A stretch of DNA of 64,000 nucleotides from Synechocystis sp. PCC 7338 (GTDB lineage: Bacteria; Cyanobacteriota; Cyanobacteriia; Cyanobacteriales; Microcystaceae). Made by a program: the position numbers and the translations under genes. Positions within the stretch are counted from its first letter, which is position 1; each line of letters starts with the position of its first letter. The notes beneath the pieces were generated by a model, which had not been told where the DNA came from, did not search any database, and was given only the letters and a program-made list of their open reading frames with translations. Where the stretch lies: assembly GCF_018282115.1 (NCBI RefSeq), contig NZ_CP054306.1:1163488-1227487 (forward strand), written 5' to 3'. Positions 34,708 through 37,387 of this stretch are shown here, piece after piece.

Positions 34708-35430
34708 TTAGGTTTCCAACAGAGCAGAGAGCTGGGCTAGGGCTACGGTGGGGGCCGTCACCGCCCGTAAAATCCTTTTACCGAGGGATACAGGCTGAAA
34801 CCCTTTGGCGATCGCCAGTTCGATTTCCTGATCCGTCCATCCCCCTTCCGGGCCAGTGGCCAACACCATTCGGGCTGGCAAACTACTCTGTTTCAAGTAT
34901 GCCCCAAGCATAGGGCTATTTCTACGAGTCACACAGAGCAAAGCTATGGTTTCGGGTCCCGTAACCTCTTCGACAAATTCAGCAAAAGTTAATGGAGGGG
35001 CCACCGGGGGTAACCATTGCCGCTCCGACTGTTCCGCCGCTTCGGTGACAATGCGCTGCCAACGCTCAAGTTTATTTTTACTGGGCTTTAATAGGGTGCG
35101 TTCCGTCAACAAAGGCTGAAACGCTGTGGCCCCCAACTCCGTACAGGGGCGAATAATTTCCTCAAACCCACTACCCTTGGGTAAGGCGATCGCCAAAGTC
35201 ACTGCTAGGGGTAATTCATTCTGCTCACTGACCGCTTCTAATAATTGGGCCGTGCCATCATCCAAATCATTTAATTGGGCCCGCCATACTCCGCCGCCGC
35301 CGTCCAACACCATGAAGCCATCGCCCCTTTGTAGTCGCAACACCCGCTGGAGATAATGCCGCTGGGGAGCAGTCAGCATAACCGTGGCATCAGTAATTTG
35401 CTCTGGGGCAACGACCAAACGGTAGGCCAT
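34708..35430 (-). CDS. rsmE: 16S rRNA m3U1498 methyltransferase RsmE
   Basis: The 240-residue SPOUT enzyme methylates U1498 of 16S rRNA. Typical features are HYLQRVLRL near the start, the GSGFEEIIRPCTELGATAF segment, EAAEQSERQWLP, and the C-terminal knot MVLATGPEGGWTDQEIELA and LGKRILRAVTAP. ATG at 35430 gives the family-like N-terminus MAYRLVVAPEQI; the longer frame to 35544 has no counterpart. It is divergent from rsmA, with a 131-bp gap. Confidence 0.92.
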   Translation of the reverse strand: MAYRLVVAPEQITDATVMLTAPQRHYLQRVLRLQRGDGFMVLDGGGGVWRAQLNDLDDGTAQLLEAVSEQNELPLAVTLAIALPKGSGFEEIIRPCTELGATAFQPLLTERTLLKPSKNKLERWQRIVTEAAEQSERQWLPPVAPPLTFAEFVEEVTGPETIALLCVTRRNSPMLGAYLKQSSLPARMVLATGPEGGWTDQEIELAIAKGFQPVSLGKRILRAVTAPTVALAQLSALLET

Positions 35431-35561
35431 AACAAAATAATTGAGGAATTTTTCCTCGCTAAAATCAATCCCCAAACGACGGTGGAGGATAGGACGAATT
35501 GTACAATGGGCTTCTGGCATTGCCCCGGCAGGGTAGTAAACCAAGCATTGATTAGAATTTT

Positions 35562-36440
35562 ATGGCTTTTCGACCCCGCAAACGCTTTGGCCAACATTGG
35601 CTGAACCATCCACCAACTTTGCAGGCCATTGTGGCAGCGGCAGATATTCAGTCCGGCGCACCGCAAAGCGGATCCCAAGGCGATCGCCTGCTGGAAATTG
35701 GCCCTGGTATGGGGGTTTTGACCAAACAATTATTGGCTACGGGCAACCCGGTGGTGGCGGTGGAGCTAGACCGAGATTTATGTCTTAAATTACGAAAAAA
35801 ATTAGGGCAAAGGGAAAATTTTCTGCTCCTGGAAGGGGATGTCTTAAAACTAGATTTAAACAGCTTATTACAAGATTTTCCCCAGTTTTCCTCTCCGAAT
35901 AAAGTAGTGGCCAACATTCCCTACAACATCACCAGTCCCATTTTAGAACTACTGTTGGGCACCATCCAAAACCCCCGTTTACCTAGTTTCCAAACCATAG
36001 TTTTATTGGTACAAAAAGAAATTGCGGAACGGTTAACGGCCCAACCCAGCACTAAAGCCTACGGTGCCCTATCGGTGCGTATGCAATACCTCGCCCGGGT
36101 GGATTGGATTGTGGATGTACCCCCCAAAGCCTTTACCCCGCCGCCCAAAGTGGATTCCGCTGTTATTCGCTTAACTCCCTATCCTGTGGAGCAACTACCA
36201 GGCGCACCGCGTAGCGGATCTCTACGAGATCGTCGTTTACTGGATCAACTCCTCCGCTTAGGATTCGCCAATCGCCGTAAAATGTTACGCAATAACCTCA
36301 AGGGATTAATTGCCCCGGAACAGTTAACTACTGTATTAGAACAGTTAGCTTTGCCGAGCACTGCCCGGGCGGAAGACTTGAGCCTAGAACAATGGTTAGA
36401 GTTAACTAATTTGTTGCCGACTTTTTTACCCCCAACCTAA
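35562..36440 (+). CDS. rsmA: 16S rRNA dimethyladenosine transferase RsmA/KsgA with two repeat-derived inserts
   Basis: The 292-residue enzyme dimethylates A1518 and A1519 of 16S rRNA. Motif I is [12 protein letters not shown], the catalytic motif is [11 protein letters not shown], and the C-terminal helical domain has [12 protein letters not shown]. Two copies of a 20-bp repeat (35655-35674 and 36201-36220), read in the same frame, add the segments GAPQSGS and GAPRSGS to loops where the family normally has none. The frame is otherwise intact. The stop and the ispE start overlap as TAATG, implying coupling. The start is ATG at 35562. Confidence 0.93.
35655..35674 (+). repeat. 20-bp palindromic dispersed repeat, copy 1 (inside rsmA)
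   Basis: GGCGCACCGCAAAGCGGATC matches copy 2 at 18 of 20 positions and contains the small palindrome CCGC-AAA-GCGG. It adds about eight residues before motif I of RsmA without breaking the frame, and is followed after a few bases by a GCGATCGC octamer. Confidence 0.8.
36201..36220 (+). repeat. 20-bp palindromic dispersed repeat, copy 2 (inside rsmA)
   Basis: GGCGCACCGCGTAGCGGATC contains CCGC-GTA-GCGG and is followed by a second small palindrome, GATCTC-TAC-GAGATC (36217-36231). It is read in the same frame as copy 1, giving GAPRSGS, before the helical C-terminal domain of RsmA. Confidence 0.8.
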
Positions 36441-37387
36441 TGCATTCCTACACCCTCCATGCCCCGGCCAAAATTAATCTTTTCCTCGAAATTCTTGGCG
36501 ATCGCCCCGACGGATTCCATGAATTGGTGATGGTGTTACAGAGCATTGCCCTGGGGGATGAAATTACCGTGCGGGCCAACGGTACCGATGACATCCGCCT
36601 CAGTTGTGGGGACAGTCCCCTGGCCAACGATGCCACCAATTTGGCCTACCGGGCGGCCCAGTTGATGATTAACCATTTTCGCCAGGCCCATAGTCAGTAT
36701 GGCGGCGTAGATATCACCCTGACCAAACACATTCCCATGGCGGCGGGCCTAGCAGGAGGTTCGGCCGATGCTGCGGCGGTGTTAGTAGGTTTAGACCTGC
36801 TCTGGAATTTAGGCTTAACCAGGCCAGAATTGGAACAGTTAGCGGCCCAACTGGGTTCCGATATTCCCTTTTGCATTGGGGGCGGCACGGCGATCGCCAC
36901 GGGACGGGGGGAAATCATCGATCCCTTACCGGACGGGGATTGCTTCTGGGTGGTGCTGGCCAAACACCGTTCCCTGGAAGTTTCCACCCCCTGGGCTTAC
37001 CAAACCTATCGCCAACAGTTCGGGAAAAATTACTTAAACGATGACCAATCCCAACGGGCCCGCCGCAAAACCATCCATGCAGGGCCCCTCCTCCAGGGTA
37101 TTCAGCATCGTAATCCAGGACAAATTGCCAGCCATATCCACAATGATTTAGAAAAAGTTGTTTTACCGGCCCATGAGGCTGTGGCCCAGTTACGGCAAGC
37201 ATTACAGTCCGCAGGGGGATTGGGCACCATGATGTCCGGCTCTGGCCCCAGCGTGTTTACCCTCTGTCAAGATCAAATAGAGGCAGAACGGGTGTTGGCG
37301 ATCGCCAAGGAAAAATTAAACGACCCCGATGTGGATTTTTGGTTAACTCACACCATCGGCCATGGCATTCAAATTATTGATCACTGA
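36440..37387 (+). CDS. ispE: 4-diphosphocytidyl-2-C-methyl-D-erythritol kinase IspE
   Basis: The 315-residue GHMP kinase phosphorylates CDP-methylerythritol in the MEP route to isoprenoids, feeding enzymes such as CrtE in this window. Motifs are [11 protein letters not shown] near the start, the ATP loop [17 protein letters not shown] and the C-terminal [14 protein letters not shown]. The start at 36440 overlaps the rsmA stop by one base (TAATG), an arrangement that implies translation coupling. Confidence 0.95.

Follow-up and report, generated by a model that had tools for sequence, protein, structure and literature searches.

It has been suggested that small dispersed repeats (SDRs) may be the smallest mobile elements, and SDR5-like repeats range in length from 21 to 27 nt. 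SDR5 of Nostoc punctiforme was reportedly described by Elhai et al. in 2008; SDR4, SDR5 and SDR6 are said to have a common paired structure, and the authors reportedly proposed a route through an RNA intermediate. Among other short repeats, REPs bear a GTAG tag 5' of the hairpin, and usual MITEs are far larger than 24 nt. In the accounts cited here, SDR5 is a HIP1-splitting small dispersed repeat (PMC4390886), the palindromic elements of Rickettsia are about 150 bp long with an encoded peptide (PMC10969869), and REPs are extragenic (PMC3116915).

We analysed a stretch of 64,000 nt from the genome of Synechocystis sp. PCC 7338 (hereafter the window), in which the octamer HIP1, GCGATCGC, occurs 61 times against 0.37 expected. 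Two copies of a 24-nt element are found within one gene of the window:

35562..36440, + strand: rsmA/ksgA, 16S rRNA adenine dimethyltransferase, 292 amino acids, with both in-frame eight-residue inserts inside it
35659..35682, + strand: copy 1 of the 24-nt element, between the HIP1 halves GGCG (35655-35658) and ATCGCC (35683-35688)
36205..36228, + strand: copy 2 of the 24-nt element, between the HIP1 halves GGCG (36201-36204) and ATCGTC (36229-36234)

The element is very probably (about 0.85) a mobile, non-coding small dispersed repeat with HIP1 as its target, a figure which covers the identity of the element, as seen in its copies, precise empty sites, target, polymorphism and pairing, and not its route of movement. 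It appears to be a distinct family of HIP1-splitting small dispersed repeats. Like SDR5 it is very small and splits HIP1, and it agrees with SDR5-like repeats in the split of HIP1 between nucleotides 3 and 4, in length and in hairpins supported by compensatory changes; the full three-way junction was not returned as the minimum-energy fold of the 24-nt element. The preliminary description had likened the repeat to the palindromic elements of Rickettsia, and the likeness stands insofar as both are palindromic, dispersed and found in frame in unrelated protein genes. As far as the cited account of those elements goes, however, the present one differs in being 24 nt long, in having a fixed octamer target and in being open in most frames and inserted in both orientations, so it was not assigned to that class. 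The nearest known relative is SDR5, which splits HIP1 in Nostoc-type cyanobacteria. REP/REPIN sequences mobilised by RAYT are likewise short, palindromic and non-autonomous, whereas several of the 24-nt copies lie inside genes, no GTAG is conserved 5' of the hairpin and the window's genome has no match to Y1_Tnp; judged against the portion of the REP literature cited above, this assignment was rejected as well. MITEs, also non-coding and non-autonomous with inverted repeats, were rejected in turn: the 24-nt element has internal hairpins and no target-site duplication, filled and empty sites differing by 24 nt with no flank duplicated.

The product of rsmA scored 295.5 bits against NCBIfam TIGR00755 RsmA (cut-off 171) and carries the inserts at about residues 32-39 and 214-221. 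The preliminary description had reported two 20-mers in this gene, at 35655-35674 and 36201-36220 (+ strand), differing at 2 of 20 positions and reading GAPQSGS and GAPRSGS in the same frame, all of which we confirmed. It had taken the 20-mer itself as the repeated unit, and this needs correction: the inserted unit is 24 nt, and the 20-mer comprises the left edge of HIP1 plus the first 16 nt of it. The GGCG at its start is part of the HIP1 target that was split. Two genomes of the same genus, G004 (L017, 95% protein identity) and G003 (L018, 92%), are 24 nt shorter at the rsmA sites, where HIP1 is intact and both read GGCGATCGCC. When 30 RsmA proteins were aligned, all of the other 29 lacked both inserts, bearing out the earlier statement that RsmA/KsgA proteins normally have no such residues: both segments are insertions and are not conserved in these homologues. 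The two copies entered rsmA within the lineage of strain PCC 7338. In an AlphaFold2 model of this RsmA (mean pLDDT 88.7), the least certain parts were the termini and both inserts, the ten-residue blocks 31-40 and 211-220 averaging 61 and 64.

Because some letters are common to the element and its flank, the element ends in rsmA are ambiguous, by up to four bases in copy 1 (35655-35678 fits equally well) and by one base in copy 2. The 3' part of copy 1 has diverged to CCCAAGGCG, which restores an intact HIP1 at 35680-35687, and in copy 2 the HIP1 at the 3' junction is now off by one base (ATCGTC). Both copies were matched by a covariance model (E = 1.7e-13 and 7.3e-16, respectively), although both were among the sequences on which it was built. 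Copies ending in GCGATCGC, as rsmA copy 1 does, were also seen in Prochloron (L099) and in L360, L366, L367 and L373, and are possibly a sub-family in which the target is kept whole.

In the window, these two 20-mers were the sole matches at up to three mismatches, while dinucleotide shuffles averaged 0.01 matches and none of 100 gave two. A search of the window's own genome (G000; 3.83 Mb, four contigs, 99.99% complete) with the merged 20-mer gave 15 matches at up to three mismatches and none with the reversed pattern; the sequence is thus present elsewhere. Chance similarity or codon bias within rsmA is ruled out by the shuffles, the zero-match reversed control and the empty sites. For the longer unit, GCGCACCGCnnnGCGGATCTCTnCGAGATCGC, a covariance model built on alignment A1 (43 hand-picked copies, several from G000, all verified letter for letter) found 12 copies in G000 at E ≤ 1e-6, namely 11 of these 15 matches and one further place, and 22 at E ≤ 1.

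Fourteen distinct sites, comprising the two in rsmA, 11 others from G000 and G004 and one plasmid site, were compared with their best matches in related sequences; L230 and L068 count as one site, and L232, which lacks a comparable empty site, was left out. L060, L065, L071 and the plasmid site belong to repeats or plasmids, so some of these relatives are paralogues. A clean difference of 24 nt between filled and empty versions was observed at 12 of the 14 sites among Synechocystis chromosomes and plasmids (both rsmA sites, L053, L061, L072, L231, L075, L052, L060, L065, L071 and the plasmid site), the element measuring 24 nt at every one of the 12, and at nine of them HIP1 is complete in an empty relative. 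The three exceptions are L231 (GCGATTGC), L075 (GCGATCGG) and L065 (no HIP1). Neither of the other two sites gave a clean empty allele: at L230/L068 G003 differs, and L073 has diverged copies only. At L071, both empty (L314) and filled (L321) relatives occur in G000.

The sites are polymorphic among the three strains G000, G004 and G003, of which G000 and G004 are nearest each other at all six loci measured. Private copies are found in G000 (rsmA twice, L053 and L231) and in G004 (L052, empty in both G000 and G003). On the other hand, at L061 and L072 the element is present both in G000 and in G003, the more distant strain, the two copies at L072 having a variant base in common, whereas the sister G004 is empty there with a perfect HIP1 (L281 and L277). 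This pattern means that precise loss, allele exchange, lineage sorting or a second insertion has to be allowed for, and the two sites in G004 are candidate precise excisions. One could suppose that the 24 nt are ancestral everywhere and were lost precisely and repeatedly, with no insertion at all, and L061 and L072 do suggest that precise loss, allele exchange or lineage sorting occurs. Nevertheless this is very improbable, as near-identical 24-mers occur at unrelated sites, neither rsmA insert is found in any of the 29 homologues, and each of the sisters has its private copies.

The plasmid gene that holds an element site is multi-copy (13 records, 25 places) and its site is filled in contigs C2 and C3 of G000. 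Among the eight record places examined, the site is filled in pSyn7339_1, in pSYLB of PCC 6714 and at one place of pSYLA, and empty at the other place of pSYLA, in pSYLC, in pSYSX and pSYSM of PCC 6803 and in strain B12. As pSYLA of PCC 6714 is filled at one of its two places (L380 and L336) and empty at the other, a single plasmid has both versions. In contig C1 of G000, L075 (883415) and L232 (881656) are neighbouring similar sequences, presumably ABC-ATPase-like as labelled by eye, each with a diverged copy and no long open frame; from their sequences they look like a pseudogene duplicated together with its insertion.

Taken together, the many copies, strain-variable presence and clean empty sites support the earlier proposal that the repeat is a small mobile palindromic element tolerant of in-frame insertion. 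Its activity in this genome, also proposed, is seen only as polymorphism between strains and between plasmid copies.

With regard to the target, the insertion point, in element orientation, lies between bases 3 and 4 of HIP1 (GCG^ATCGC), and a one-base shift is equally possible where a G is common to element and target. The product of insertion is GCG-CACCGCnnnGCGGATCTCTnCGAG-ATCGC, in which two triloop hairpins stand between the HIP1 halves. Around the rsmA copies the split site is GGCG^ATCGCC, and the base beyond the octamer is variable on either side. Species genomes were scanned with a pattern in which GCACCGC, GCGGAT, a single C, a single G and ATCGC were constant, while the loops, two stem positions per side and the bases further upstream could vary. 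At least 120 stretches were found, and the 80 listed hold 81 matches, 72 of them cyanobacterial by record title. At the two unconstrained bases upstream, GC stands in 63 of the 72 cyanobacterial matches listed and in none of the nine listed from other bacteria, only the 3' ATCGC and one G being imposed; in 40 further stretches with unnamed hosts (L156-L195), which stand outside these counts, upstream GC was seen in 34 of 41 matches. We also searched 71 listed cyanobacterial loci and 400 kb of Nostoc for inserts of other lengths or split points in HIP1. Clusters of 24 nt and 21 nt were obtained, the former by construction since the 71 loci had been picked by pattern, and the other clusters were shifted or partial registers of these two elements or had one to three members.

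In a sample of 388 genomes of the class, the 32-nt pattern at up to three mismatches detected the element in nine, and the covariance model at E ≤ 1e-6, run with stricter Infernal filters which drop weak matches, in 21. The reversed-pattern control gave zero in each genome scanned. Hosts among the cyanobacterial matches listed include Crocosphaera, Prochloron, Paraprochloron, Xenococcaceae, Hyella, Synechocystis salina and Picosynechococcus. Length variants are scarce (4 of 40 copies fetched after the class scan). A variant with CTGC/GCAG stems is common in family f13 (G320, G344 and G034; L340-L359), with 5-11 model matches per genome. No match was found in Rfam at E ≤ 1 for window positions 35000-37000. 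Our literature search gave no recognisable description of the 24-nt element, although the 2008 SDR5 paper may list the family, and no paper combining Synechocystis with "small dispersed repeat"; queries with stretches of the 24-nt and 21-nt sequences returned only an unrelated 13-mer match.

A second HIP1-splitting family was obtained by de novo search of 400 kb of a genome of the Nostoc family (G394) for repeated inserts in HIP1. This search returned one strong family, a 21-nt element, GCG^TAGGCGTAGCCCGCCGCAGGC^ATCGC, with the same split point as the 24-nt element. It was detected in 21 of the 388 class genomes, with up to 236 copies, and 17 of these belong to family f18 (17 of the 24 f18 genomes sampled), which includes Nostoc since one contig of G394 is a Nostoc plasmid. 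The 236 copies, counted at up to three mismatches, are all in the Nostoc genome G394 (e.g., L253 and L270), and some copies there have GTC-GTA-GAC replacing GCC-GCA-GGC, a compensatory change. From its fit to the published description, this 21-nt element is presumably SDR5. This Nostoc candidate for SDR5 differs from the 24-nt element in sequence, length and hosts: the 24-nt element was found in none of the 24 sampled f18 genomes, either by pattern (up to three mismatches) or by covariance model (E ≤ 1e-6), and only one genome of the 388, G276, has both. The lengths of the two, 21 and 24 nt, are both whole numbers of codons.

Since 24 nt are eight codons and most frames are stop-free, insertion of the element in a gene adds eight residues. 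Each of the six frames is free of stops in 47 to 61 of 61 distinct 32-mers. Copies in open frame occur in RsmA (twice), a DUF4336 protein, a DUF1824 protein, a Rieske/PaO oxygenase, a JAB-domain protein and a plasmid AAA kinase-like protein; in G004, they occur in a metallophosphoesterase and a Dnd-type methyltransferase. These host proteins are unrelated by Pfam/NCBIfam, and the copies within genes are read in several frames and in both orientations. What the gene insertions have in common is survival of the frame, and no particular peptide is selected. Other copies (L074, L075, L231, L232 and L235) lie outside long open frames. A shortened copy reading AISQRSF (L238, G000 C3:11156-11181) was observed inside a plasmid SNF2/helicase-like protein of >800 amino acids.

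Both hairpins of the element are kept by compensatory changes. Alignment A3 consists of 33 of the 40 copies fetched after the class scan (L341, L349 and L350 were excluded as identical, and L359, L365, L368 and L377 as length variants or out of register) and 13 earlier hand-picked copies, with L076 and L078 shifted by two bases at their outer ends. Over 44 distinct sequences, pair 7-15 is C-G in 26, T-A in 16 and A-T in 2, and pair 20-26 is C-G in 21, T-A in 16, T-G in 1 and unpaired in 6. Cells changed on both sides numbered 37 against 12.9 in shuffles, a value reached by none of 500 shuffles, and 95.8% of pair cells were standard against 90.5%, with the proviso that rows found with the covariance model lean to its structure and that related copies are not independent. 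Slide controls gave at most five such cells each. Alignment A1 alone has two pairs with a both-sides change, not above shuffles (117 of 500 reach it), and 10 both-sides cells against 2.5 shuffled. Pair 20-26 was not imposed by the pattern search, and in the 72 cyanobacterial pattern matches listed it is T-A in 52, C-G in 18 and unpaired in 2. In divergent model-found copies, CTGC-nnn-GCAG or CAGC-nnn-GCTG replaces CCGC-nnn-GCGG; the outer stem made by HIP1, with one both-sides change, is little supported. Folding of short stretches around the two rsmA copies was no better than shuffles, and the minimum-energy folds of single copies were neither a three-way junction nor better than shuffles. 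The pairing therefore rests on covariation, as single-sequence folds do not support the structure.

How the element moves may be approached through the enzymes of its hosts, among which no dedicated one stands out: neither Y1 transposases nor reverse transcriptases were detected in every carrier tested. HUH chemistry joins hairpin-flanked single-stranded DNA at a fixed sequence without target duplication, and in one account the element would travel with the help of a Y1 (HUH) transposase, of either the IS200/IS605 or the RAYT type, its single-stranded DNA being cut and joined after a short fixed sequence. The fixed junction, the lack of target duplication and the conserved hairpins fit such chemistry, and in a profile search of 18 chosen genomes Y1_Tnp (PF01797) was detected in 16. 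However, G000 and G002 are the two that lack it, G000 nevertheless having insertions absent from both near relatives (rsmA twice, L053 and L231), and the GTAG tag is not conserved 5' of the hairpin; we regard this account as doubtful. Rather unlikely is an RNA route, in which a reverse transcriptase, for instance that of a group II intron, would copy a hairpin transcript into nicked HIP1. Pairing conserved through compensatory change speaks for it, and RVT_1 (PF00078) matches were found in 15 of the 18 genomes, G000 having one; the three without are the carriers G004, G012 and G260, and G004 has its copy L052 at a site empty in G000 and G003. G004, a draft of about 120 contigs, has one Y1_Tnp. 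Thus, with no Y1_Tnp in G000 and no RVT_1 in G004, the two sisters with private copies share neither family, although an enzyme family absent from today's genomes may have been present at the time of insertion.

The loops bear on the same question. Over 102 copies (100 after removal of the duplicates L058/L106 and L068/L085; nine non-cyanobacterial loci left out), which are not independent and 30 of which came from a pattern favouring a loop ending in A, the loop 1 triplets form six reverse-complement pairs against no reversed and two complement pairs: GAA 34/TTC 5, GTA 16/TAC 10, AAA 15/TTT 1, GGA 4/TCC 1, CCA 2/TGG 1 and ATA 2/TAT 1, of which the AAA and ATA pairs are complementary as well as reverse-complementary. 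Loop 2 gave three reverse-complement, one reversed and two complement pairs. Both strands of DNA are needed to give reverse-complement loops, which a single RNA could not produce. This argues against the RNA route and implies that the hairpins exist as DNA when their loops are inverted, perhaps not during movement; any short inverted repeat can undergo loop inversion, which has no necessary tie to movement.

We tentatively favour, at less than even odds, a DNA-level, host-assisted route at nicked HIP1 over a resident dedicated transposase or reverse transcriptase in every carrier. Hairpin DNA would be copied or joined into a HIP1 nicked on one strand, and this might be mainly the work of the host's own replication and repair enzymes, or of an enzyme that was present for a short time only. 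PvuI/SgfI-type enzymes cut at GCGAT^CGC; the junction GCG^AT is GCGAT^CGC on the other strand, so that a nick there on one strand would fix the orientation of the element in a palindromic target. A stronger version, in which the 24-nt sequence spreads with no dedicated enzyme and is taken up at HIP1 nicks by ordinary replication and repair, seems unlikely. If true, it would explain the HIP1 specificity, the fixed orientation, the loop inversion and the carriers that lack one or the other of Y1 transposase and reverse transcriptase; HIP1 would then be both landing and exit site, precise loss restoring HIP1.

The 24-nt family adds a second sequence family with HIP1 as target, also of whole-codon length, in a genetically tractable genus, and its insertions illustrate that eight-residue peptides can enter conserved proteins such as RsmA with the frame unbroken. 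Filled and empty versions of one site, on different plasmids and on one plasmid, make movement testable. This very small, apparently jumping sequence thus offers a practical system for finding how such sequences move.
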